The notes beneath the pieces were generated by a model. It searched no databases and was not told the origin of the DNA. It worked only from the letters and a program-made list of their open reading frames with translations. Shown here piece after piece: positions 7,849 to 63,652 of a stretch of 64,000 bases of DNA. Within the stretch, counting starts at the first letter, position 1, and every line of letters begins with the position of its first letter. The translations under genes and the position numbers were made by a program. The stretch lies in the NCBI RefSeq assembly GCF_001402875.1, contig NZ_CP012946.1, positions 2,086,001 to 2,150,000 on the forward strand, in the 5' to 3' direction. The DNA is from Blastochloris viridis. GTDB taxonomy: Bacteria; Pseudomonadota; Alphaproteobacteria; Rhizobiales; Xanthobacteraceae.

Positions 7849-9009
7849 TCACTGGCCGCCGCGGAGCGAAGGTGCGGGCGGTTCGGCGAAGCCGGCGCGC
7901 TCCGGCGTGTCGGCCGGCACTTCGGCCAGCGATGGGGTCGGGGCGTCCTCGCCGGTCTCGACCGGCCGGGACGGCGACGGTGGCGCCGGAGGTCGCGGCT
8001 GGACCGGAATCAAGGTGCGTGCGAGGTCGGCCGGCTTGGCCGACCGCGGCGACTGCGCCACCACCGGCTCGTCCATCCGCCAACTGCACAGCCTGCGGCC
8101 GCTGGCGCGCTCGGCGAGGTCAACGTGGATGTGGTTCTCGTGATAGCCGTCCGACCCAGGCCCCAGCACGGTCATGAACCGTTCGCAGGCACCACGCTTC
8201 ATTTCGGTGAGCAGGGCTTGCGGCATGTCCGGGTTGTCGATGAAGCGCCACTGGCCGTCCCGGCTCTCGAAGCCGCGGATGTCGATGGCGTTGGCGTGGC
8301 CGTGCTCGCTCATCTTGGCGAGCGGATTGCGGTTGCGGCCGCGGCAGTCGTAGCTGGCGAAGTTCTTCAGCGCCTTGAACGGGTGGCCGACACGCGCCGC
8401 GCTCGGCGCCAAATCCTCGCGCACCCAGCGCGACAGGCCCTCGGCCATGCGGCAGTTCAGCGTCGCCGCCGGCTCGATGGCGACCCGGCTGCCGTCCGCC
8501 AGCACCACCGCCGACAATTCCACCACCTCGGCGGCGCCGCAGGTCCCGACTCCCTTGACCGGCGGCACCGGCTTGGCCACGGCATAACCCAGCGCAAACA
8601 CGTTGCGGCAGTGGCCGTCGGGCGACGCTGGAAGGTTGCGCGGGACGCCGAGATCGGCCGGCTGGACGCCGACCGACGTCAACGCCAAACCGGCCGGCGG
8701 CAAGGTCGGCCGGCGCGGCGGCAACGGCACCACCGCGGCGATCGCGCCCAGCGCGGTCACCGGTTTGGGCGGCGCACCGGCGATCGACCAGGGTGACAGC
8801 GCGTGCTGCGGCGGCAGCGGCACCACGCCGGCGGCGGCAATGTCGACCGGCAGCCCGGTTTCAACCGGCAATGTGGAAAATGAAAATACCGCCTTGTGCA
8901 ATGGCAGCGGCGGCACGATCTCAATGTGCGCGCTGCCTTGCGCCAAAGCCGCACCACTCGATCCGAGGGCCAGCGCCAACGCGAAACCAGTCACAGTACG
9001 CATTTGCAT
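7849..9009 (-). CDS. Extensin-like C-terminal domain protein, exported
   Basis: A 386-residue protein with a Sec signal (F-A-L-A-L-A-L-G-S-S-G-A-A-L-A) and a Pro-rich middle. The extensin-like domain follows, with C-R-M-A-E, S-Y-D-C-R-G-R-N, S-E-H-G-H-A-N-A-I-D-I and N-H-I-H-V-D-L. The conserved His/Asp pattern resembles the metal site of D-alanyl-D-alanine carboxypeptidase-like peptidases. A periplasmic peptidoglycan role is therefore plausible but inferred. The C-terminal 80 residues are low-complexity and Pro-rich. The ATG at 9009 was chosen because AGG sits just upstream and the signal then starts at the N-terminus. Confidence 0.85.
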   Translation of the reverse strand: MQMRTVTGFALALALGSSGAALAQGSAHIEIVPPLPLHKAVFSFSTLPVETGLPVDIAAAGVVPLPPQHALSPWSIAGAPPKPVTALGAIAAVVPLPPRRPTLPPAGLALTSVGVQPADLGVPRNLPASPDGHCRNVFALGYAVAKPVPPVKGVGTCGAAEVVELSAVVLADGSRVAIEPAATLNCRMAEGLSRWVREDLAPSAARVGHPFKALKNFASYDCRGRNRNPLAKMSEHGHANAIDIRGFESRDGQWRFIDNPDMPQALLTEMKRGACERFMTVLGPGSDGYHENHIHVDLAERASGRRLCSWRMDEPVVAQSPRSAKPADLARTLIPVQPRPPAPPSPSRPVETGEDAPTPSLAEVPADTPERAGFAEPPAPSLRGGQ

Positions 9010-9291
9010 ACGTCGCCTATAGCACGGCCATAGCGGAAAGTTCACGACGGTTTGCGGCCGTGACTGCTGAGCCGGTCGCCAACGATCGCCCGAGCCGCAG
9101 CGCCACGCGCATTTGATTGTCTTTTTCAGGCGAAACCGAGCAAAATAAACTCGGTCGCAACGATTATCAGCAAAGTACCTCCGTCATTATCCGCAAGTAT
9201 TATGCCTATTGTCGACATCCACCCTCCCGCACTCGCTCGACGTGCCGTAAATCCTCGACAGCGAAAGTGGGCGAGAAGACCACCGGACTGA

Positions 9292-10821
<1,530 letters not shown>

Positions 10822-12487: not shown

Positions 12488-12924
12488 CCTTTCTCGGCCT
12501 CATGGTGAGGAGGCTGCCACCGGGTCGCGCCGCAGGCGCGCCCGATGCCAGGCTCCGCAGCCGTCTCGAAGCATGGGGCCGACCTCAGCTTCTCAAGTCC
12601 GCCCTGTAACTTGAATGCGCCGCGATCGGGTAAGCTACCCGGTGCGGTAACGGGTGGGAGACCGAAGCCGCCTGGGTCGTTGGAGACCGTGAGTGAGATC
12701 GGCCGCCCCACTCGTCGTTCCTTCGAACCCGGACAGTCGCCAGGGCCGCAAGAGCTCGCTTCGCCGCCACCAAAGGGCGCCGCTCGCAGGCGGATCACCT
12801 TTCGCCGAGCGAGACACCGTCAAGCGGGACGCGACCCGATCCCTTGCCCTCCGCCGCGTGGCGAACGATCGGCTGTTGCGGTATTCTTTCGCTCAGGATG
12901 CGACTTTGTTTTCGGGAATGCAGG
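12488..12924. other. Unassigned, possibly structured intergenic stretch
   Basis: About 440 bp between the dead antitoxin gene and the fusion-protein gene. The first 100 bp looks like a degenerate palindromic repeat (CTCATGGTGAGGAGG with a distant GTCTCGAAGCATGGGG). The part around 12600-12720 is full of short complementary blocks such as ATCGGGTAAGCTACCCGGT and might be a remnant of a structured RNA. The frames that cross it have shadow-like composition. No gene is called. Confidence 0.3.
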
Positions 12925-14154
12925 ATGGCCGGGGCGCGGACAAGCCAGACACACCCCCTTCAGATCGCGGAGGTGCGCGCCAGCCCCTCGCAGGGGCGGA
13001 TCGGGATTACATTCTGCCCCGGCAAGCACGACAATGCCGCGAGCACGGGGGCTTGGGCACGCGACCTAACGGCAGATCTCGACGTCATCAAAGCATGGGG
13101 CGCGGGTCTGGTGCTGACGCTGGTCGAGCCGGCCGAGCTCGCAGCGCTCAAGGTGCCCCATCTCGGCGCGGAAATCCGAAGCCGGGGGCTCGATTGGCGG
13201 CACCTGCCGATCGCGGACTACTCGGTACCGACCGAGGCCTTCGAGCGAGAATGGCAGAGCCACGGCCGGGACATTCGCGCGCTGATAAGCGGCGGCACTG
13301 ACGTGGTGGTGCATTGCAAGGGCGGGCTCGGCCGGGCTGGCATGATTGCCGCCCGGCTTCTCATCGAACTCGGCCTGACGCCGGAGCAGGCAATCCAGGA
13401 CGTCCGCCGCGCCCGCAAAGGCGCGATCGAGACCCCGGCGCAGCTCGCGCTGGTCAGGCGGACGAGGGCCATTATCTCCACGGATGCCGACGCCATCGAC
13501 ACCGCGACCATGCAGAAGGTCGGCGGCCGGATGGGAAGCAATCCGGCCGGCGTCTATCAGGACAGCAGCGGCCGGCGGTTCTACGTGAAGTCGCTGGAAT
13601 CGCCCGCGCATGCGCGCAACGAGATCCTTGCGGCGAAGCTCTACCAGCTGGCCGGGGCGCCGACGCTGACCTATGTGAGCGCGAAGGAGCCGAACGAGGT
13701 GGCGACCGTGTTTGTCGACCTCGACAAGAAGCATGTCTCGCAGCTCAGCGACGGCGAGCGCCGGCAGGCGCAGCGCTGGTTCGGGGTGCACGCCTGGACA
13801 GCGAACTGGGACGCAGCCGGATTCGACGGCGACAACCAGGGGGTCGCCGGCGGGGTCGTCTTGACGCTCGATGTCGGCGGCGCGCTCGAGTTTCGGGCGC
13901 AGGGGGACCCCAAAGGCAGAGCATTCGGGGCGAGCGTTCGCGAGCTCGACACCTTGCGCACCGACGCGGACAACACTCACGCGGTCCGGCTGTTCGGCGA
14001 CATCGGCCCTGCCGAGATCGGTGATGCCATCGCTGTGGTGACACGAATTCCGGACGCTGCGATTCGGAGGGTCGTCGCCGAGAATGGCGGCAGCAGCTCG
14101 CTTGCCGAAAAAATGATCGCCCGCAAAGCCGACATGGCAAGGCGCGTGGCCTGA
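12925..14154 (+). CDS. Dual-specificity-type phosphatase fused to a kinase-like domain
   Basis: A 409-residue protein with two catalytic-looking halves. Residues 20-190 form a dual-specificity / CDKN3-like phosphatase domain: the P-loop H-C-K-G-G-L-G-R gives nucleophile Cys131 and Arg137, and Asp98 in A-D-Y-S-V-P is a likely general acid. Residues about 200-350 look like a kinase-fold domain. It has a glycine-rich G-S-N-P-A-G-V-Y-Q loop at 204, Lys222 in F-Y-V-K, Glu233 in R-N-E-I-L-A-A-K, N-W-D (294-296) with D-N (303-304), and D-V-G-G (316) in the metal-binding position. Similar C-terminal domains occur in phage-type proteins (recollection, unchecked). It converges on draG with only 12 bp between stops. 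The start could also be the ATG at 12898. Confidence 0.8.
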   Translation: MAGARTSQTHPLQIAEVRASPSQGRIGITFCPGKHDNAASTGAWARDLTADLDVIKAWGAGLVLTLVEPAELAALKVPHLGAEIRSRGLDWRHLPIADYSVPTEAFEREWQSHGRDIRALISGGTDVVVHCKGGLGRAGMIAARLLIELGLTPEQAIQDVRRARKGAIETPAQLALVRRTRAIISTDADAIDTATMQKVGGRMGSNPAGVYQDSSGRRFYVKSLESPAHARNEILAAKLYQLAGAPTLTYVSAKEPNEVATVFVDLDKKHVSQLSDGERRQAQRWFGVHAWTANWDAAGFDGDNQGVAGGVVLTLDVGGALEFRAQGDPKGRAFGASVRELDTLRTDADNTHAVRLFGDIGPAEIGDAIAVVTRIPDAAIRRVVAENGGSSSLAEKMIARKADMARRVA

Positions 14155-14166
14155 GCGGCGGGCGGC

Positions 14167-15066
14167 TTAAACGCCTTCGGTGCTGGCGCCCCGCGACATC
14201 GCCAGCAGCCGCGGCACCTGCGCGCGGATGGCGTCCGCTGCGTCGCGGTCGAGCCTTGCCAGCCAGCGCGCTGGGATCGCCTCCAGCCCATAGGTGGCGC
14301 CCGCAAGCATGCCGGCAATTGCGCCTGCGGTGTCGGCGTCACCACCTTGATTGACGGTTTGGACGACGCACTCGGCGAAGGAGTCCGCGCACAGATAGTG
14401 GTGCAGCACGGTTTGCATGGTGTCGACAATGAAGGCCGAGCATTGGCCCGGATAGGGCTCGAAGCGAAATGCCCTGTGCTTGCCCACGAGGATTTCAGCC
14501 TCCTTGCGCACGACGTCCTTCCCCTGCCCTTCAAGGAGGCCATGCGCCATGCGCACGAGCGCGAGGCAGGCGTCGTCCGACAGCGGATGATGATGCGTGG
14601 CGTGCGCCTGCGCCAGCGTCCACGATTCCACCGTGCCGGGCTGGCCAAATGTCGCGAGCGCCACGGGCAGAATGCGCATCGCGGCGCCGTTGCCGGCGTC
14701 GCCTTCGGAAAACGAGCCTTCGACGGTGCCCTCCACGACATAGCGCCGAATACCGCGCCGGCAGGTGTTGCCAACATCGGCCGGCCCGGTCTTCAGCCAC
14801 GCCGCGAATTCGTCGCAGACGTCGCGGGCGTCCAGCCCACCCTTGCGGATGATCGAGCGCCCCAGCGCGAGCGCCATCTCGGTGTCGTCGGTCACCTGCC
14901 CCGGCTTGAGCCTCAGCCAGCCGCCGCCGACGATGTCGCGATGCACGCCATACTGCGCCGCGATTTCGCTCCTGGTCATGAACTCGACCGTGGCGCCGAG
15001 CGCGTCGCCGATGGCGAAGCCAAGATAGGCCGCGAGCGCGCGGCTCTCCACAGTCAGCGCGGGCAT
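14167..15066 (-). CDS. draG: ADP-ribosylglycohydrolase (dinitrogenase reductase-activating glycohydrolase type)
   Basis: A 299-residue ADP-ribosylglycohydrolase. In nitrogen fixers DraG removes ADP-ribose from an Arg of the nitrogenase Fe protein and so switches the enzyme back on. Metal-binding Asp motifs are visible: G-F-A-I-G-D-A-L-G-A near the N-terminus, V-T-D-D-T-E-M-A-L and G-G-D-A-D-T-A-G-A-I-A-G-M. Length and motif spacing are normal. The draT-like gene lies 12 bp upstream in the same direction, the expected partner, and the two should be cotranscribed. Without draT next door the call would be only ADP-ribosylglycohydrolase. Confidence 0.9.
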   Translation of the reverse strand: MPALTVESRALAAYLGFAIGDALGATVEFMTRSEIAAQYGVHRDIVGGGWLRLKPGQVTDDTEMALALGRSIIRKGGLDARDVCDEFAAWLKTGPADVGNTCRRGIRRYVVEGTVEGSFSEGDAGNGAAMRILPVALATFGQPGTVESWTLAQAHATHHHPLSDDACLALVRMAHGLLEGQGKDVVRKEAEILVGKHRAFRFEPYPGQCSAFIVDTMQTVLHHYLCADSFAECVVQTVNQGGDADTAGAIAGMLAGATYGLEAIPARWLARLDRDAADAIRAQVPRLLAMSRGASTEGV

Positions 15067-15078
15067 GCGACCGTCTCC

Positions 15079-15915
15079 TCAAACATAGTCCACGCTCACC
15101 CGAAATTCGCCGCCGATCGCCAGATACTCGCGTTCGCCCTTCAAGAGATACGAGGGCAACAGGCCGTTGAAAAACAGGATTTTACTGACAGGAACGCGCG
15201 CCGTGAGGATCATGTCGCCGAAGCAGTCAGCGACGCCGCGGTCGGACGAAAACGACACAAGGTTGTTGAGCCGGATCACCGCCGCGTGCTTGTCCGTCCG
15301 CTCCACGATCCAATGCTCATCGAAGTCATTGACGCCGCGAAACAGCGTCAGATGCGTCTCGCCCGGAAACGCGAAACGCTGAATGGCCCATTGGCAGAAC
15401 TCGAACAGAAGATCGAGCTGCACCCAGATCGCGTTGTCATGGAAGTGGCTCGACATCTTCTCGTCGACATAGGCGGCCCAGGCGGGACTCGAAACCTGCT
15501 CGATGATTTCCTTGTGGAACGACGGGCAGACGCCGAACCGGCTCTCGACCCAGCCCTTCAGCACGGCGCCTTCCGGGCCGTTGCTGTCGAAGCTCCAGCC
15601 GGTGATCAGCCGCAGGAACGACGAGCGATAGCGGCGCTTTCCGCAGGATGCCGCGTCGCGCTGTTCGGGATCGATGCCGAACATCGCCATCATGTAGCAG
15701 AAGAACGCTTCACCCGCCTCGGCGAGGTCGCCCGCCCGCTCCAGCATGCTGAACAGGCTGCGGTTCATCTCGCATACGCCCCAGATGTGCAGCGGAACCG
15801 GCGCTTCGTTGAAAGCGCAACTCTCCAGCCACTCCGAGGGCCGCCCCACGAGGTTGGTCGAATGGCCGATGCCGCGCCGCATGCGAGATCCCGCGTCTTC
15901 CATCGCTTGGAGCAT
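15079..15915 (-). CDS. draT: NAD+--dinitrogen-reductase ADP-ribosyltransferase
   Basis: A roughly 278-residue protein of the DraT family, which transfers ADP-ribose from NAD+ to the nitrogenase Fe protein and switches nitrogen fixation off in response to ammonium or energy loss. The triad of arginine-specific ADP-ribosyltransferases is visible: Arg in L-F-R-G-V-N-D, the S-F-S-S-D motif, and E-R-E in K-G-E-R-E-Y-L. N-terminal segments F-N-E-A-P-V-P-L-H-I and E-M-N-R-S-L-F fit the family. It precedes draG by 12 bp. The start is uncertain among 15924 (TTG), 15915 and 15903. I saw no clear sigma-54 promoter upstream. Confidence 0.88.
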   Translation of the reverse strand: MLQAMEDAGSRMRRGIGHSTNLVGRPSEWLESCAFNEAPVPLHIWGVCEMNRSLFSMLERAGDLAEAGEAFFCYMMAMFGIDPEQRDAASCGKRRYRSSFLRLITGWSFDSNGPEGAVLKGWVESRFGVCPSFHKEIIEQVSSPAWAAYVDEKMSSHFHDNAIWVQLDLLFEFCQWAIQRFAFPGETHLTLFRGVNDFDEHWIVERTDKHAAVIRLNNLVSFSSDRGVADCFGDMILTARVPVSKILFFNGLLPSYLLKGEREYLAIGGEFRVSVDYV

Positions 15916-16054
15916 TCTCCGCAACGGCGGATACCGGCGTTTTGCGAAATATTAAACGTTACGTCAAAGGCTTAGAGCAATCGCGGAGAAAAAACACACC
16001 GGTGGCCCCGTCCAACAGCTCCCGGCGTCCAGACTTCGAGCCGCGGTCGGTTCA

Positions 16055-16087
16055 CCGAAAGCCCTGGTTCGCACCCAGCGCTTTCGG
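16055..16087. repeat. Imperfect hairpin between draT and hflX
   Basis: CCGAAAGC (16055-16062) pairs with GCTTTCGG (16080-16087), with an inner CTGG/CCAG stem and a TTCGCAC-type loop. It lies 40 bp past the hflX stop and upstream of draT on the same strand. It could end hflX transcripts, but no T-tract follows. Confidence 0.4.
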
Positions 16088-16125
16088 CGTGGTCGCTTCC
16101 GGAATTGCGAGGTGATGGAACCTGA

Positions 16126-17496
16126 TCACGGGTTCGGCGGGAACCGTCGGTCGATCTCCTCCAGCCGCTCGGGCGATACCCGCACCGTGACCAGCGTGCG
16201 CCCGGTCTCCGCGTCGCCTGAGCGTTCGATCACGTCGGCGTGGCGATAGAGCCAGGCCAGCCCCTGCCCGTCCTCGGGCGCCAAAGACACCGTGCGGGTG
16301 ATGCGCCCAGCGGTGATGCGCGTCTCGATGCGGTCGAGCAGCGCCTCGACCCCCTCCCCGCTCAAGGCGGACACCAGCGCCGGCTGCTGCTCGGCCGGCC
16401 GACGCGCGGCCTCGGCGTCGAGCTGCGCCCGCGCCTCGCCTTCGATCAGGTCGACCTTATTCCACACCTCGACGATACGGGCATGGTCGTCCGAATCGAT
16501 GCCGAGTTCGCCCAGCACATCGGCGACGTCGGCGGCCTGAGCGGCGGTGTCGATATGGGCAACGTCGCGCACGTGCAGGATCAGGTCGGCCTCGATCACC
16601 TCTTCCAGTGTGGCGCGGAACGCCGCCACCAGCGTAGTTGGCAACTCGGAGATGAAGCCGACGGTGTCGGACAGGATGATGCGGGTGCCATGCGGCAGAC
16701 CGACCGCCCGCAACGTCGGGTCGAGCGTGGCGAACAACAGGTTCTCGGCGAACACCTCGGCCCGCGTCAGCCGGTTGAACAGCGTCGATTTGCCGGCATT
16801 GGTGTAGCCGACCAGCGCAACCACCGGGAACGGAACCCGCTCGCGGCTTTTGCGGTGCAGCGCGCGGGTGCGCGTCACCTGCTCCAGCTCGCGTTCGATC
16901 GAGATGATGCGCTCGCCGATCAGGCGACGGTCGGTCTCGATCTGGGTCTCGCCGGGGCCGCCGAGGAAGCCGAAGCCACCGCGCTGGCGTTCAAGATGGG
17001 TCCATGACCGTACCAGCCGGCTCTTTTGATAGTTGAGGTGGGCGAGTTCGACCTGCAGCGTGCCCTCGCGGGTGCGCGCGCGCCGTCCGAAAATCTCGAG
17101 AATCAGCGCGGTGCGGTCGATGACCTTGGTCTTCCACGCCCGTTCCAGATTGCGCTGCTGAACCGGCGAGAGGCTGGCGTCGACATAGGCGAGGTCGATC
17201 CGTTCGGCCTCGATGAGGCCGGCGAGTTCCTCGACCTTGCCCTTGCCGAGGAAGGTGGCGGGACGCACGTCGGCCAGCGGCACCAGCGTGGCGACCACGA
17301 CGTCGAGGTCGATCGCGGCGGCAAGGCCGGTCGCCTCGTCCAGCCGGGCGTCCGGCGTGCGCGTCGATCCGGCTGCACCGGCACGCGATCGGTCGCGGCT
17401 GCGCACAGGGACCAGCACCGCGGCGCGGGTCGGCGCCACCCTGGTGTCGTGGGCGGCGCCGCGGGCACCGGGGCGCGACTCATCAAAGAAACTCAA
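16126..17496 (-). CDS. hflX: Ribosome-associated GTPase HflX
   Basis: A 456-residue GTPase of the HflX family, which binds the large ribosomal subunit and splits stalled ribosomes after stress. The N-terminal HflX domain with F-L-G-K-G-K-V-E and the [10 protein letters not shown] helix is followed by the G domain: P-loop [11 protein letters not shown], switch II D-T-V-G-F-I and N-K-V-D-L for guanine. The Ala-rich N-terminal tail is typical of this lineage. Its start codon directly follows the hfq stop, the conserved hfq-hflX order, so the two are probably one operon. Confidence 0.95.
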
Positions 17497-17757
17497 TTAC
17501 GTCTTCTCGGCAGGAACCGCCTCGTCAGCTGCGTCGAACAACTGAACGGGCTGGCCCGGCATGATCGTGGAAATGGCGTGCTTATAGACAAGCTGCGAGT
17601 GTCCGTCCCGCCGCAGGAGAACACAAAAGTTGTCGAACCATGTCACCACCCCCTGCAGCTTCACACCGTTCACGAGGAATATTGTCAGCGGTACTTTATG
17701 TTTGCGGACGTGATTGAGGAAGGTGTCCTGTAAATTCTGAGCACGTTCAGCCGGCAT
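17497..17757 (-). CDS. hfq: RNA chaperone Hfq
   Basis: An 86-residue Sm-like RNA chaperone that forms a hexamer and pairs small RNAs with target mRNAs. The Sm1 part [16 protein letters not shown] and the Sm2 motif Y-K-H-A-I-S-T are all present. In several Rhizobiales Hfq also controls nifA expression (general knowledge), which is notable because draTG lies just downstream. The ATG at 17757 gives the standard N-terminus M-P-A-E-R-A-Q. The frame is open further upstream, but that part does not look like protein. Confidence 0.96.
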
Positions 17758-17975
17758 TTTCTTGGTCCATTGTCTGTCGATTCGGCTGGAAGGAATCGGC
17801 TTTTGTTTTGCCCTGCAGCGGGCGGCGCAGATCAGGCTGCGACGCAGAGGTGGACACGGAACATTAGATGGCAAACCGGGGCTAGCACGCAAGCCGGGTT
17901 GTGTCCTGCAGCAAAAAATCACGCCGGCCGCCGTTCACGAACCGGCGAACCACCCGGTTCGTCGGCCAGCAGCGG

Positions 17976-18833
17976 CTATGGCGCAACCTCGGCCACGCTA
18001 TGGAACGTCGCCCGCAGTTCGCGCGCCGCACGGCCGGGCTTGCCATCGCCGACGGCGCGGCCGTCGATGCGCACCACCGGCATCACCCCCAGCGTTGCGG
18101 AGGTGACGAAAGCTTCCACCGCCGCGTAGGCCTCCTCCCGCGTAAATCCCCGCTCCTCGACCTGGAGGTTCAGCCGCGCCGCCACCTCCAGCGTCACGGT
18201 ACGGGTAATGCCGCGCAGGATGCCGAATTCAGCCGGCCGGGTGATCAGGCGGCCCTCGGCCGACACGATCCAGGCGTTGGAAGAGCCGCCTTCGGTAACG
18301 TAACCGTCGCGGTCGACGAACCACGCCTCGCGGGCGCCGGCGGCCTTGGCCGCCTCCTTCGCCAGGCAGTTGGGCAGCAGCCCGACGGTCTTGATGTCGA
18401 CCCGATCCCAGCGATTGTCCGGCACGGTAATGACCGAGATGCCGGCTTCGGCCCGCTGCTCCAGCTCGGCACGGCTGGTCGCGCGCGCCGTCACCACCAG
18501 CGTCGGCGTGGTGTTGGCCGGGAACAGGAAGTTCCGTTGCGCCACGCCGCGCGTCACCTGCAGATAGACCAAGCCATCGCGGACGCGGTTGCGTCGCACC
18601 ACCTCGCGCAGAACGAGGCCGAGCGCGGCACGGCTCATCGGCATCGCCATCCGCAGTTCGCCGAGCGAGCGGATCAGCCGGCTGATGTGGCGGGTCTCGT
18701 CGATCAGGTGGCCGTCCCGGACTTCGCAGACCTCGTAGACGCCGTCCGCGAACTGAAACCCGCGGTCCTCGATATGAACCCCCGCCTCTCCATGCGGAAC
18801 ATAAAGGCCATTGACGTAAGCTATGCGCGACAT
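17976..18833 (-). CDS. D-amino acid aminotransferase / class IV PLP aminotransferase
   Basis: A 285-residue fold-type IV PLP enzyme. It starts with Y-V-N-G and has E-D-R-G-F-Q-F-A-D-G-V-Y-E, the class signature, the catalytic Lys in V-D-I-K-T-V-G-L-L, and T-E-G-G-S-S-N-A-W in the PLP-binding loop. The motif set fits D-alanine aminotransferase (making D-Glu from D-Ala for peptidoglycan) better than branched-chain aminotransferase. The same fold includes aminodeoxychorismate lyase, so the substrate is not certain. It sits between the ntrYX genes and hfq on the same strand, a frequent arrangement in Rhizobiales. Confidence 0.85.
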   Translation of the reverse strand: MSRIAYVNGLYVPHGEAGVHIEDRGFQFADGVYEVCEVRDGHLIDETRHISRLIRSLGELRMAMPMSRAALGLVLREVVRRNRVRDGLVYLQVTRGVAQRNFLFPANTTPTLVVTARATSRAELEQRAEAGISVITVPDNRWDRVDIKTVGLLPNCLAKEAAKAAGAREAWFVDRDGYVTEGGSSNAWIVSAEGRLITRPAEFGILRGITRTVTLEVAARLNLQVEERGFTREEAYAAVEAFVTSATLGVMPVVRIDGRAVGDGKPGRAARELRATFHSVAEVAP

Positions 18834-19044
18834 GGGTAGGTGTAGTCCTTTCGACTCGCTGGAGCGCATGGCGCCGGGATGGAACGGCCGCGTGCCTTCA
18901 GGTTTGTTCGAGCGTGGCGCCCACGCAAGGCCGCAGCCGCCTGCGGGGCATCGGCTCTGGATGGAGCGCGCAATCTCGCACGCCGTCCCGCCCGGCTCCA
19001 GGCCGGACGCGGTGCCGGGCAACCGCGCTCAAGCCATCGTGACC

Positions 19045-20412
19045 TCAACCGATGCCGAGCGTCTTGAGCTTGCGGTGGAGCGCCGAGCGCTCCATGCCGA
19101 CGAACTCGGCGGTGCGCGAAATGTTGCCGGAAAACCGGCTGATCTGGGCGGCGAGATATTCCCGCTCGAACATCTCGCGGGCATCGCGCAGTGGCAGACG
19201 CAGAATCTGGTCGCTGCCGTGGCCGTTCGGCATCGCCGGCATCAGCGCGCCGACATCCTGCGGCAGCATCGAGGCGTTGATGGTGGCGTCGGAATCGCCG
19301 CCGGCCAGAATCAAGAGGCGCTCGACGTTGTTGCGGAGCTGGCGGACGTTGCCCGGCCAATCGTGGGCCTGCAGCACCGCCATGGCGTCCTCGCCGATGG
19401 TGCGCTTGGGCAGACCGGTTGTCTGCGAAATCTGCTCCATGAAATAGGCGATCAGTTCCGGAATGTCCTCGCGGCGCTCGGCCAGCGAGGGCAGCCGAAT
19501 CGGCACCACCGACAGGCGGTGATAGAGGTCCTCGCGGAAACGGCCGGCCGCGATCTCGGCTTCCAGGTTGCGGCTGGTGGACGAGATGATGCGCACATCG
19601 ACGTGCACGCGGGTGGTGCCGCCGACCCGCACGAAGTTCTGGTCGACCAGCACGCGGAGGATCTTGCTCTGGGTTTCGCGCGGCATGTCGGCGATCTCGT
19701 CGAGGAACAGCGTGCCGCCGTGGGCCTCTTCGAGTGCGCCGACGGTGCGACCGCGCTGGTCGCCACCCTCGACGCCGAACAGTTCGGTCTCCATCCGCTC
19801 AGGCGTGATCATCACCGCGTTGGTGGCGACGAACGGCCCGTTCGCGCGGGTGGACTGAGAGTGGATCATGCGGGCGGTGAGCTCCTTGCCGGCGCCCGAC
19901 GGCCCGACCAGGAGGATGCGGCTGTTGGTCGGCGCGACGCGGTCGATCGAGGTCCGCAACTGGTTCATTGCCGGCGAGGAGCCGACCAGATGCTGGGCGA
20001 TCGGCGCGAAGGTCTTGAGTTCCTTGACCTCGCGCTTCAGGCGCAGGGTCTCGATCGCCCGCTCGACCACCAGCACCAGGCGGTCGGCCTTGAACGGCTT
20101 CTCGATGAAGTCGTAGGCGCCCTTGTGGATCGCCGTCACCGCGGTCTCGATGTTGCCGTGGCCGGAGATCATCACCACCTGCACGTCGGGGTGGTGCTGC
20201 TTGATGACGTCGAGCAGTTGAAGCCCGTCGAGCCGGCTGCCTTCCAGCCAGATGTCGAGTAGAACGAGGTGCGGCCGGCGTTGTTCGATTGCAGCCAGCG
20301 CGCTGTCGCTGTCGCCCGCGGTGCGGGCGTTGTAGCCCTCATCTTCCAGGATACCGGCAACGAGGTCTCGGATGTCGGCTTCGTCATCGACGATCAGGAT
20401 GTCGGAGGCCAT
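19045..20412 (-). CDS. ntrX: Nitrogen regulation response regulator NtrX
   Basis: A 455-residue response regulator with receiver, AAA+ and Fis-type DNA-binding domains. Phospho-acceptor Asp53 lies in L-V-L-L-D-I-W-L. Walker A is G-P-S-G-A-G-K-E, Walker B is [10 protein letters not shown], and the C-terminal helix-turn-helix is G-N-I-S-R-T-A-E-F-V-G-M. The GAFTGA loop that contacts sigma-54 is replaced by G-G-D-Q-R-G-R-T-V-G-A, as is usual in alphaproteobacterial NtrX, so it probably does not act as a sigma-54 activator. It starts 4 bp after the ntrY stop and pairs with NtrY to control nitrogen, respiration or redox genes. Confidence 0.95.
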   Translation of the reverse strand: MASDILIVDDEADIRDLVAGILEDEGYNARTAGDSDSALAAIEQRRPHLVLLDIWLEGSRLDGLQLLDVIKQHHPDVQVVMISGHGNIETAVTAIHKGAYDFIEKPFKADRLVLVVERAIETLRLKREVKELKTFAPIAQHLVGSSPAMNQLRTSIDRVAPTNSRILLVGPSGAGKELTARMIHSQSTRANGPFVATNAVMITPERMETELFGVEGGDQRGRTVGALEEAHGGTLFLDEIADMPRETQSKILRVLVDQNFVRVGGTTRVHVDVRIISSTSRNLEAEIAAGRFREDLYHRLSVVPIRLPSLAERREDIPELIAYFMEQISQTTGLPKRTIGEDAMAVLQAHDWPGNVRQLRNNVERLLILAGGDSDATINASMLPQDVGALMPAMPNGHGSDQILRLPLRDAREMFEREYLAAQISRFSGNISRTAEFVGMERSALHRKLKTLGIG

Positions 20413-20416
20413 GCAT

Positions 20417-22705
20417 TCACCTCTGCCGTGAGTCGTGAGCAGCTGCCGGCTGAGCGGCGGGTGTCGGTGGATCGGCTTGGAACCTCAGGCGGACCCAGGC
20501 GCCGCGCCCGCCGCTGGCGACTGCCGGGGCGTCGGCGAGCTCGATTCCGCCGCCGTGGTCTTCCAGAATCCGGCCGACGATGGCGAGGCCGAGGCCGGTG
20601 CCCTTCTCGCGCGTCGTGACGTAGGGCTCCAGCAGGCGTTGGCGGTTTTCCGCCGGCAGGCCGATGCCGTTGTCGATGACGTCGATCACCACGTCGTCGC
20701 CGTCACGGCCGAGCGAAATCTCGATTTTGGGCGGGTGGACCGCGTCCGGCGGCGCCGCCGCCACCGCCTCGGTGGCGTTCTTGACGATGTTGGTCACGGC
20801 CTGGGACAGCTGGCGGCGATCGAACCGCGCCATCACCGGGGTGTCGGGCAGATGGCTCTCAAACGTGATGTCGGGGCTCGCCATCTTCATCAGGAACACC
20901 GCCTGCCGCACCATGTCGACGGCATCGTGCTCGCCGAGCGTCGGCTTGGGCATGCGGGCAAACGAGGCGAACTCGTCGACCATGCGGCCGATGTCGCCGA
21001 CCTGGCGGATGATGGTGTCGGTGCACTGCTCGAAAACCTCGCGGTCGGTCTGGATCACCTTGCCGTATTTTCGCTTGAGGCGTTCGGCCGACAGCTGGAT
21101 CGGCGTCAGCGGGTTCTTGATCTCGTGGGCGATGCGGCGGGCGACGTCCGCCCACGCCGAGGTGCGCTGGGCGGTGACAAGGTCGGTGATGTCGTCGAGG
21201 GTGACGATGAAGCCGCGGTTGGGGTCGGCCGCCGTCTCGCTGGTAACGCGCACCAGCAGGGTACGCTCACGGCCCTTTCGCACCAGCGTAACCTGGCCCT
21301 GCACCAGCCGGTTGCCGCCGGCGCGGGCATCCTCGACCAATGACGCCAGTTCCGGCACCACCTCGGCGACCGGCTTGCCGACGGCCTCGGCGGCGTCGAG
21401 CCCGAGCAACCCCTCGGCCGAGCGGTTGACGATGGTGATGTTGCCGGCCGCGTCGAGGCCGAACACCCCGGCCGAAACTCCCGCCAGCACCGCCTCGGTG
21501 AAACGTCGGCGCTGGTCGATCAGGTCGCGCGCACCGATCAGGTCGTCGCGCTGGCTGCGCAATTCCTGCGTCATCTTGTTGAAGCTCTCGCCGAGATTGG
21601 CGAGGTCGCCCTCGGGGCGGCGCACCGGCACCTGGACGTAGAGGTTGCCGGCGGCGACCAGGTTGGCCGCGCCGATCAGCCGGCGGATTGGGGCAACCAG
21701 GGTGTTGGCGAAGGCGAGCCCGATCCACACCGCCGATAGCAGCACGATCAGCGCGATCACCACGTACATCAGCGCGAACGCCACCTGCACGCCGAACCGC
21801 CGCTCCTCCAGCACCCGGAACTCGTCGATCGAGGCCTGGGTTTTCTGCAGGTAGTCGATGACGCGCGGATCGATCGGGCGGGCGACCAGCAGATAGGTGT
21901 CCTCATAGGCCTTGAGCGGCATCACCGCGGCGACGATGTCGTTCTGGCCGATGATCTGGATCAGCGGCTGCTCCTCGGTCGCATCGCCAATGGCCAGGGT
22001 CGCCGGAATCAGGATCTCGCGGGCGAGTTGAATGTTGGCGCGTTCGATGATCGTGAGGTCGCGCTTGATCAGCATGGCGACCGGCAGGCCGCGCAGCGTC
22101 GCTTGCCCGGTCATGATCTGGCGGAACCGCTCGCGGTCGCTGTCATAGATCGGGTGCAGGCGGTTGAAGTCCTGCGCCATCGCCAGGATTTCGCCGCGGA
22201 TCGAGCCGGCGTGCTCGCGGACATAGGCCTGGCCGATCCCGATCGAGGTCTCGACCATCAGCTTGGTCCGCTCGGAAAACCAGCGGTCCAGCCCGCGGTC
22301 GAGCGTGATCGAGGCCACCACCGCGACCAGGATCGCCGGCAGCGCCGCGATCACGCTGAACAGCGACACCACGCGGATATGGAGCCGCGCGCCGGCGCGA
22401 CCGCGCTTTCGCGCCACCCACAGCGACATCCCCTCGCGGACGATCACTGCCAGCAACCCCGCCACCGTGATGGCGTTGGTGCCGAGCAGGGTGACGACGA
22501 TCTCGTGGGTCGGCGCGATCGGCGTCAGCCCGGCCAGCACCAGGAAGGTGGCGAGCGCCGACAACAGCGCCAAGCCGACCGCGAGCGGGCCGAGCAGACG
22601 CACCCACAGCCGCCGCGGCACGGGTGGGAAGCTGGCAGTCTCGCCGCCGGTCGCAGCGGGAACGGTATCGGTCTGTTGCGCCGTCACATGTTGCTCCGGT
22701 GCCAA
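20417..22705 (-). CDS. ntrY: Membrane sensor histidine kinase NtrY
   Basis: A 762-residue sensor kinase. The N-terminal half has several hydrophobic segments around a periplasmic region, then a HAMP linker, a PAS domain (G-V-F-G-L-D-A-A-G-N-I-T), the phospho-accepting His near residue 525 in [12 protein letters not shown], and an ATPase domain ending in G-T-G-L-G-L-A-I-V-G. It phosphorylates NtrX, whose gene follows after 4 bp. Length and domain order match NtrY of Rhizobiales. A methyltransferase gene separates this pair from ntrBC upstream. Confidence 0.95.
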   Translation of the reverse strand: MAPEQHVTAQQTDTVPAATGGETASFPPVPRRLWVRLLGPLAVGLALLSALATFLVLAGLTPIAPTHEIVVTLLGTNAITVAGLLAVIVREGMSLWVARKRGRAGARLHIRVVSLFSVIAALPAILVAVVASITLDRGLDRWFSERTKLMVETSIGIGQAYVREHAGSIRGEILAMAQDFNRLHPIYDSDRERFRQIMTGQATLRGLPVAMLIKRDLTIIERANIQLAREILIPATLAIGDATEEQPLIQIIGQNDIVAAVMPLKAYEDTYLLVARPIDPRVIDYLQKTQASIDEFRVLEERRFGVQVAFALMYVVIALIVLLSAVWIGLAFANTLVAPIRRLIGAANLVAAGNLYVQVPVRRPEGDLANLGESFNKMTQELRSQRDDLIGARDLIDQRRRFTEAVLAGVSAGVFGLDAAGNITIVNRSAEGLLGLDAAEAVGKPVAEVVPELASLVEDARAGGNRLVQGQVTLVRKGRERTLLVRVTSETAADPNRGFIVTLDDITDLVTAQRTSAWADVARRIAHEIKNPLTPIQLSAERLKRKYGKVIQTDREVFEQCTDTIIRQVGDIGRMVDEFASFARMPKPTLGEHDAVDMVRQAVFLMKMASPDITFESHLPDTPVMARFDRRQLSQAVTNIVKNATEAVAAAPPDAVHPPKIEISLGRDGDDVVIDVIDNGIGLPAENRQRLLEPYVTTREKGTGLGLAIVGRILEDHGGGIELADAPAVASGGRGAWVRLRFQADPPTPAAQPAAAHDSRQR

Positions 22706-61676: not shown

Positions 61677-62408
61677 GTGACCACGCCGCGCCGCAGAGCC
61701 GACGTCGTGCTGGTCGAGCGCGGCCTGTTCGAAAGCCGCGCCCGCGCCAAGGCCGCCATCGAGGCCGGGCTGGTCAAGGCCGACGGCATCGTTCTGACCA
61801 AGGCGTCGGACGCCATCGCCCCCGGCGCCGACATCATCGCCGAGGCGCCGCACCCGTGGGTGTCGCGCGGCGGCGTCAAGCTCGCCCACGCCCTTGACGC
61901 CTTCGGGGTCGATCCGGCCGGGCTGATCTGCCTCGACCTCGGCGCCTCGACCGGCGGCTTCACCGACGTGCTGGTCAGCCGGGGCGCCGCCCGCGTCTAT
62001 GCCGTCGACGTCGGCCACGGCCAGCTTCACCCGAAAATCGCCGCCGACCCGCGGGTGGTCTCGCGCGAGGGCGTCGACGCCCGCGACGTCACCTTGGATT
62101 TGCTCGGCGCGGCGCCCGGCCTCATCGTCATCGACGTCGCCTTCATTCCGCTCACGCTGGTGCTGCCCGCCGCCCTGGCGGTGGCGGCGCCAGGCGCGCG
62201 GCTGGTCGCCCTGATCAAGCCGCAGTTCGAGGCCGGCCGCGACCGGGTGAAGAAGGGCGTGGTGCGCGACGCCGCCATTCATGCCGAGGTGTGCGATAAG
62301 GTCGCCGCCGCCGTCGCCAGGCTGGGCTGGACGGTCGACGGCATCATCCCCTCCCCGATCGCCGGCGGCGACGGCAACCGCGAGTTCCTGCTGGTGGCGC
62401 ATACATGA
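61677..62408 (+). CDS. TlyA-family rRNA 2'-O-methyltransferase
   Basis: A 243-residue protein with an N-terminal S4 RNA-binding domain ([16 protein letters not shown]) and an FtsJ-like methyltransferase domain. The SAM motif is [11 protein letters not shown]. The catalytic tetrad includes Lys in S-R-G-G-V-K-L, Asp in V-I-D-V-A-F and Lys in I-K-P-Q-F-E. TlyA methylates cytidines in 16S and 23S rRNA in some bacteria. The start is GTG, and the stop overlaps the next gene by four bases. Confidence 0.9.
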
Positions 62409-63652
62409 CGACCGAACGCCTGACCATCGCCTGCTTGGGCCATCGCGGCGACGGCTGCGCCCAGACCGCCGACGGCCCGCTCTACGTGCCCTTCACCCTG
62501 CCGGGCGAGGAGGTCGAGGTGCAGCGCGTGCCGGGCAAGGACCGCGCCGACCTCGTCCAGGTGATCCGGCCGAGCGCCGACCGCGTCGAGCCGTTCTGCC
62601 CCCATTTCGGGGTGTGCGGCGGCTGCGCGCTGCAGCACATGGCCGAGCCGGCCTACCGCGCCTTCAAGCATGGCATCGTGGTCTCGGCGCTGGCCGACGC
62701 CGGCCTCGACGTCGAGGTGGCCGACATCGTGCCGGCGCACGGCCGCGGCCGCCGCCGCGCCACCTTCCACGCCCGCAGCACCGCCCATGACGTGCTGGCG
62801 GTCGGCTTCATGGCCCAGCGCGCCCACCGCGTGGTGCCGATCGACGACTGCCCGATCCTCGATCCCGGCCTCGCCGGCGCAGTGACGGCGTGCTGGGCGG
62901 TGGCCGAGGCGCTGGCCGCCACCGGCAAGCCGCTCGACATCCAGGTCACCGCCACCGATGGCGGGCTCGACGTCGACGTGAGCGGCTGCAGCCGGCTGCC
63001 GGAGCGCCTGCGCCAGACGCTGGTGCGGATGGCCGGCGCGCAGGACCTTGCACGCCTCACCCTGGCCGGCGACCTGATCGTCAAGCGCCGACCGACCACC
63101 ATCGCCATCGGCCGGGCGTCGGTCGAGCTGCCGCCCGGCGCCTTCCTGCAGGCCACCGACGCCGGCGACATCACACTTGCCACCCTGGTGCGGGAGATGG
63201 CCGGCAAGCTCGCCGGCAAGGCCGCGGTGCTCGACCTGTTCGCCGGGGTCGGCACCTTTGCCTTGCGGCTGGCGGAGACGGTGCGGGTTACCGCGGTCGA
63301 CGGCGATGCCGCCGCCATCGCCGCGCTTGACGCCGCGGTGCGCGCCACCCAGGGCCTGAAGCCGCTGACGACGGAGGCGCGCGACCTGTTCCGCCGGCCG
63401 CTGGTGGCGGCCGAGCTGAAGCCGTTCCGGGTGGTGGTGTTCGATCCGCCGCGCCAGGGCGCCGAAGCCCAGGCCAGGCGGCTGGCCGACAGTGCCGTGC
63501 CGGCGATCGGCGCGGTGTCCTGCAACCCGTCGACCTTCGCCCGCGACGCCAAGCTGCTGGTCGCCGGCGGCTACCGGCTGACGCGGGTGGTGCCGGTCGA
63601 CCAGTTCGCGTGGTCGCCGCACGTCGAGGTGGTGGCGCGGTTCGAGCGCTGA
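62405..63652 (+). CDS. TrmA/RlmD-family RNA (uracil-5)-methyltransferase
   Basis: A 415-residue enzyme with an N-terminal TRAM-like domain and a methyltransferase core. An iron-sulfur Cys set is present in the order [10 protein letters not shown] with a later Cys in D-D-C. The SAM motif is [10 protein letters not shown], the F-D-P-P-R-Q-G motif follows, and the catalytic Cys is in S-C-N-P-S-T-F. Whether it modifies rRNA or tRNA is open. It overlaps tlyA by four bases, a pairing that suggests joint rRNA modification. Confidence 0.92.

Follow-up and report, generated by a model that had tools for sequence, protein, structure and literature searches.

In a stretch of 64,000 nucleotides from Blastochloris viridis (contig NZ_CP012946.1, positions 2,086,001 to 2,150,000; the whole stretch is called the window here), one gene on the + strand (12925..14154) joins an N-terminal phosphatase domain (PTP) to a C-terminal domain (CTD) with a predicted kinase fold in a protein of 409 amino acids, and this gene converges on draG and draT. 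DraT and DraG reversibly ADP-ribosylate the nitrogenase Fe protein, a textbook case and a target for the engineering of nitrogen fixation. We propose, with a probability of about 0.58, that its product is a kinase-phosphatase pair accessory to the DraT/DraG switch, i.e. a reversible phosphorylation layer on the ADP-ribosylation cycle. The CTD kinase would add a phosphate to a component of this cycle and the CX5R phosphatase would remove it, and the phosphate cycle would form a second reversible layer over DraT, which adds ADP-ribose to the Fe protein, and DraG, which removes it. We observe the two domains, a kinase fold with its catalytic residues kept, a constant pairing of PTP and CTD in the loci examined and their co-occurrence with DraT; a kinase fold that is paired with a CX5R phosphatase suggests that the two act on the same phosphate in opposite directions.

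A phosphatase and a kinase-fold domain in one gene

The fusion is a real gene, as the best 120 of its 1889 protein matches are at least 68% identical, mostly over the full length. Of 23 aligned rows, 16 begin at the residue equivalent to position 12925 (among them the window with its given start), four are longer and three shorter; an alternative TTG start gives a longer open reading frame (12844-14154). Between the stop codon and that of the convergent draG gene (14167..15066, - strand; ADP-ribosyl-[dinitrogen reductase] hydrolase; NCBIfam TIGR02662, 445.2 bits, cut-off 337.05) lie 12 bp (14155-14166), and draT (15079..15924, - strand; dinitrogenase reductase ADP-ribosyltransferase; Pfam PF07357, 353.5 bits) shares the strand of draG. 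Open reading frame and profiles thus agree with the initial annotation, which had read the locus from the letters as a one-gene fusion of a phosphatase and a kinase-like domain facing draG.

The PTP comprises residues 1-187 (12925..13485, +) and matches the Pfam families Tc-R-P, PTP-SAK and CDKN3, all above their cut-offs. Its CX5R catalytic loop runs from Cys131 to Arg137 (13315..13335, +), and both residues, as well as Asp98 (13216..13218, +), the candidate general acid, are identical in 23/23 aligned rows including the window, which bears out their earlier assignment. Loop and CX5R (PTP/DSP) phosphatase fold are both present, and phosphatase activity is a prediction; in a fold search with the full-length model, KAP and PRL, both protein phosphatases, are among the nearest folds. 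With the whole fusion as query, Pfam yielded phosphatase families only (at E 10) and NCBIfam a single weak row over the phosphatase region (at E 1).

The CTD (residues 188-409; 13486..14151, +) was modelled alone, as the fold search of the full-length model was filled by phosphatases. Among the families listed by the aligner, its AlphaFold model best matches CtkA, HipA and actin-fragmin kinase, and the kinase fold, whose absence would have refuted the initial annotation and which that annotation had suspected from a few residues, extends over the whole domain. These residues, Gly204, Lys222, Glu233, Asn294, Asp296 and Asp316, are identical in 90/90 CTD rows (window included), and so is a further one, Asn304. 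Judged by position, Lys222 (13588..13590, +) is the candidate ATP-binding lysine and is also kept in 14/14 rows of a wider alignment, six of them from phages or plasmids; the segment from Asn294-Trp-Asp296 to Asn304 (13804..13836, +) may form the catalytic loop, and Asp316 (13870..13872, +) would be the metal-binding (DFG-like) aspartate. The CTD probably belongs among small atypical kinases of the CtkA/HipA/actin-fragmin-kinase type, and its kinase-fold family has no name in the profile libraries used here. The CTD alone had no match in Pfam or PHROGs at E 0.01, the fusion matched no kinase family in Pfam or NCBIfam, and sequence profiles of the HipA/CtkA type do not recognise the CTD. A profile search against PDB sequences returned two weak rows, 1l0q (E 0.0047) and 6j52 (E 0.64), both judged to be unrelated.

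Distribution of the pair and co-occurrence with DraT

In a scan of genome contigs 86 stretches were confirmed and 80 loci kept. By title, 78 of these come from Pseudomonadota (purple bacteria, methanotrophs, Zoogloea, Rubrivivax, Derxia, Amphritea and others) and the remaining ones from metagenome-assembled genomes named Desulfovibrionales and Sunxiuqinia; Rhodobacter capsulatus is among the carriers (locus L073). In every one of the 80 loci PTP and CTD lie next to each other or in one protein (19 fused, 59 separate, two not assigned to either arrangement), and in a clustering of neighbours, to which no antitoxin profile of the HipB or HipS type was applied, PTP is the only constant partner of the CTD. 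Separate predicted CTD proteins, mostly of 220-245 amino acids, occur among the best 120 of 698 matches to the CTD, and some may be fragments or alternative gene calls, e.g. P0127, whose B. sulfoviridis contig is as long as the one with the fusion in locus L009. In another predicted protein, P0192 (370 amino acids), the CTD is combined with a radical-SAM part (Pfam PF04055), which may reflect a true fusion or an assembly error. Beyond the pair, the neighbour families common to the loci are the DraT and DraG clusters, besides one cluster of 14 loci; the other clusters are taken as shadow frames of the PTP, CTD, DraT and DraG genes. The same clustering revealed no common family of WYL or Nudix transcription factors, no profile search being aimed at them.

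Fifty of the 80 loci were assigned to 47 genomes (two loci were without a genome and two lay in one genome), which were searched as a whole together with 14 control genomes. All 47 carriers encode DraT, with best matches at E 5.6e-80 or better (the weakest in G429), as compared to 0/14 controls. The DraG model matched in 47/47 carriers, in 37 of them above the cut-off. The AnfD model gave nitrogenase-type matches of 179 bits or more in every carrier, but also rang in 4/14 controls. A sample of 385 Alphaproteobacteria contained DraT in 7 genomes, nifD above the cut-off in 13 and the CTD in 2, with one additional weak CTD match (G179, E 1.7e-4) left out of the CTD counts; the corresponding numbers in a second sample, 224 genomes from the class of Methylomonas LW13, were 12, 19 and 2. 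DraT is present in 15 of the 30 nifD genomes of both samples (the two centre genomes left out) and is thus far commoner in the carriers than in sampled nitrogen fixers generally. The weak CTD relative of G179 (locus L091) is located near the start of a long protein with a signal-like N-terminal stretch and, by eye, a Nudix-box-like motif; NCBIfam had no match for this protein.

Three different layouts place the pair beside DraT. In the window, in nine of the 80 loci and on a plasmid of Rhodobacter CZR27 the fusion converges on draG-draT. Two copies of the CTD and two of DraT are present in Rhodoblastus acidophilus DSM 142, where the fusion in locus L075 and a DraT gene are oriented divergently; by coordinates this locus is contig C12 of genome G392, where AnfD (61833-63374), CTD (68171-68836) and DraT (69668-70423) lie together, whereas two other Rhodoblastus genomes (G391, G406) have DraT near AnfD without an adjacent CTD. 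In Thalassolituus, finally, DraT (8602-9423), PTP (9436-9987) and CTD (9980-10675) are codirectional and DraG is divergent. In other carriers DraT and the pair are far apart, e.g. by about 0.95 Mb in Methylomonas LW13. An alternative nitrogenase was rejected as the common factor, as only 8/47 carriers exceed the AnfD cut-off; 12/47 exceed it or have a match of about 700 bits, which is taken for VnfD.

Several observations weigh against the proposed role. The activities of the two domains, the antagonism between them, the substrate proposed and any influence on nitrogenase are predictions. The carriers are related, so that 47/47 does not represent 47 independent cases and probabilities calculated without regard to kinship are too favourable, and the DraG match is below the cut-off in 10/47 carriers, a level at which the model also rang in 5/14 controls. 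DraT was found near the pair in 11/80 loci and DraG in 10/80, both numbers being lower bounds as some of the fetched stretches are short. For the convergent layout the tree requires four changes, at least three of them forced by well-supported branches, and these may represent a single origin with subsequent losses. Upstream of the PTP gene no clear enrichment of sigma54/NifA promoters was detected in 72 testable loci (scored with consensus motifs; 8/80 loci were dropped as their start motif was not found): the mean best sigma54 score was 12.07 as compared to 11.94 at random places, scores of at least 13 occurred in 25% vs 20%, and a NifA-type site was present in 4/72 upstream regions vs 2.5% of random places. 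Moreover, the pair occurs in only 1/6 other DraT genomes of the first sample and 1/11 of the second, i.e. in 2/17 together, and with the centres left out the CTD is found in 2/17 genomes with DraT and 0/15 diazotrophs without it, numbers too small to separate DraT from nitrogen fixation generally. With so few other DraT genomes carrying the pair, the switch usually works without it, and the pair is an accessory of the DraT/DraG switch rather than a core part. The initial annotation had suggested that the fusion may be tied to the ADP-ribosylation switch; this holds at the level of gene content and for the three layouts beside DraT, but most homologues are not physically linked to draTG.

Within 14167-22705 of the window, hflX, hfq, the nitrogen regulator gene ntrX and a histidine kinase gene, taken for ntrY, lie on the same strand (-) as draG and draT, so that the switch adjoins a nitrogen-control cluster in this genome. 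In genome G000 (C1:3243493-3245742) a second NifH-like gene precedes a gene of the nitrogenase D type, which scores 349.4 bits with the nifD model and stays short of its cut-off; together they probably encode an alternative nitrogenase.

Relatives in phages and plasmids and the possible substrate

A tblastn search of 50,697 phage records identified CTD relatives in 19 records with 32-37% identity, sorted by hand into 11 groups, some of which (Jeremy, Dolphis, Touem01) look related. In 9/11 groups the CTD relative is accompanied by an ADP-ribosyltransferase (ART), which is part of the same protein in Jeremy, Touem01, Mecenats66 and phiT5282EW (Pfam) and, by annotation only, in Dolphis, ST4 and fHe-Yen8-01, and is encoded by the second gene downstream in Mareelih and Sixama (the latter by annotation). 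No ART was detected in Phendrix (gene 66 and two later genes) or in the one large protein of DSL-LC01. A NUDIX gene follows in Jeremy and Mecenats66 (Pfam) and in ST4 (annotation), and a Pseudomonas juntendi plasmid protein combines NUDIX, a CTD-like region and ART in one chain. As background, ARTs are reported for 30% of myoviruses and more than 40% of jumbo phages, as compared to 3% of sipho- and podoviruses (PMC9503650). An IMG/VR scan, which requires exact peptide patterns, gave 34 pattern-matching stretches, none of which was confirmed. The initial annotation had alternatively regarded the second domain as phage-derived and unrelated to the switch. Distant phage relatives indeed exist, but as most phage groups pair them with an ART, this kinship does not make the CTD unrelated to the switch. 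Six plasmid records contain CTD relatives; of four Streptomyces plasmid matches, the one inspected (L126, 4-6708) encodes a protein of 2234 amino acids that ends in the CTD relative and has a Gln_deamidase_2 (Glutaminase) match just above the Pfam cut-off, and a Pfam scan of this protein found no ART.

The PTP has a separate link to ADP-ribosylation. No PTP relative was found among the 50,697 phage records at E 1e-5, and 68 plasmid records contain one, the five best after the CTD-bearing Rhodobacter being Thauera, Roseomonas, Cereibacter, Leisingera and Fuscovulum. Four of these five nearest CTD-free relatives are coupled to an ADP-ribosylglycohydrolase, by fusion in Cereibacter, Leisingera and Fuscovulum and by overlapping genes in Roseomonas; both domains are Pfam-confirmed in all four, and these PTPs are 46-54% identical to that of the window and match the same Pfam families. 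The Thauera relative lies alone among transposases. The four glycohydrolase-PTP plasmids are distinct from the six plasmid records that contain a CTD relative, and in our own reading their loci belong to the glycohydrolase-centred systems described in parts of Iyer et al. 2022 (PMC9503650). Of three weaker records inspected, one PTP relative is beside a VWA-domain gene and two are in arsenic-resistance operons (L157, L158; 33-34% identity), which counts against the proposed role and hints that the PTP family also works outside ADP-ribosylation.

In most of these phages, as in nitrogen fixers, the CTD occurs with an ART, and in its nearest plasmid relatives, as at this locus, the PTP occurs with an ADP-ribosylglycohydrolase; a phosphate on the ADP-ribose mark or on the transferase is the economical reading. 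Mark and transferase are the candidate substrates that agree best with the comparison, since they, unlike nitrogenase, are common to nitrogen fixers and phages; the data from nitrogen fixers are accounted for just as well by phosphorylation of a side chain of DraT, DraG or PII. In a more specific and still speculative scheme, which we consider unlikely, an ART would write the mark, the kinase would lock it by phosphorylating the ADP-ribose against removal by the glycohydrolase, the phosphatase would unlock it and the glycohydrolase would erase it. Phages would carry write and lock (ART with the CTD kinase), bacteria unlock and erase (PTP with ADP-ribosylglycohydrolase), and all four would meet in some nitrogen fixers as DraT, CTD, PTP and DraG. 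The absence of PTP relatives from the phage records and the glycohydrolase-PTP plasmids without a CTD relative are in line with this scheme, which predicts that phosphorylated marks resist DraG. Should the phosphate indeed sit on ADP-ribose, a widespread protein mark would gain a chemical state not recognised before, and this might explain why ADP-ribosylglycohydrolases have phosphatases as companions.

Other explanations have to be weighed against an accessory role in the ADP-ribosylation cycle. The CTD may set transferase activity by modifying or binding the ART, as SidJ, which controls SidE; this would agree with the CTD being accompanied by an ART in phages and nitrogen fixers alike, but the paired phosphatase would be superfluous if the modification were not a phosphate and DraT is not near the pair in 69/80 loci, and we regard this explanation as very improbable. 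Somewhat unlikely is a Ser/Thr(/Tyr) kinase directed at a side chain of DraT, DraG, a PII protein or the Fe protein, with PTP as its phosphatase and the ADP-ribose mark untouched. The nearest solved folds, CtkA and HipA, are termed Ser/Thr kinases in the parts of the literature consulted, KAP and PRL among the nearest folds of PTP act on proteins, and DraT and DraG are themselves known to be regulated (in part from PMC6067124); such a kinase leaves unexplained, however, both the CTD relatives accompanying phage ARTs and the similar plasmid PTP coupled to glycohydrolases without a CTD relative.

The remaining two explanations detach the pair from DraT. As a guard against foreign ADP-ribosylation by phage ARTs it would merely reside in DraT-bearing genomes. 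Glycohydrolase-centred loci have been proposed to counter viral ADP-ribosylation (PMC9503650), and two of the nearest CTD-free plasmid PTP relatives adjoin WYL-domain genes as such loci do. The fusion, the only sequence scanned, had no PADLOC match, however, and is strongly conserved, whereas conflict systems are called rapidly evolving in the same paper; together with DraT and nitrogenase-type matches in every searched carrier this leaves a guard function little probability. A general accessory of nitrogen fixers, functionally untied to DraT and found with it by shared lineage, would fit the 11/80 loci near DraT and random samples too small to tell DraT from nitrogen fixation, but it is improbable given that DraT accompanies all searched carriers while half of the sampled diazotrophs (15/30) are devoid of it, and given three layouts beside DraT and a genome with a second copy beside a second DraT.

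Comparison with known systems

The locus resembles the known DraT-DraG switch in that draT and draG lie together beside the fusion gene and DraT is present in all 47 searched carriers, but a phosphatase-kinase pair as part of the switch was not found described in the open-access literature searched, nor was the PTP-CTD pair itself. A conserved kinase-phosphatase pair that follows DraT/DraG, including in Rhodobacter capsulatus, a model species for the switch, would be an overlooked control. With the CtkA, HipA and HipT kinases the CTD shares the fold and the kept candidate residues for ATP binding and catalysis; it differs from them by an identity of only 10-15%, the lack of a kinase-family profile match and a constant partner that is a phosphatase. 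Phage polyvalent proteins, as described in parts of Iyer et al. 2017 (PMC5512222), are likewise large phage proteins bearing ART or kinase domains, whereas their kinase group is reportedly found for the most part in elements of Verrucomicrobia-Chlamydia and Bacteroidetes. With the glycohydrolase-centred systems that have rhodanese/PTP-type phosphatases (PMC9503650) the locus shares a PTP of the same Pfam families as the plasmid PTPs coupled to ADP-ribosylglycohydrolase, and the PTP gene of the window faces draG, although no DraG was found nearby in 70/80 loci. In that paper, however, the loci were chosen without a coupled transferase, whereas here DraT adjoins DraG and a kinase-fold domain is added. 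The coupling of phosphatase and glycohydrolase is already known from that work; both the partner with a kinase fold and its link to DraT appear to be novel as far as the open-access literature searched is concerned.
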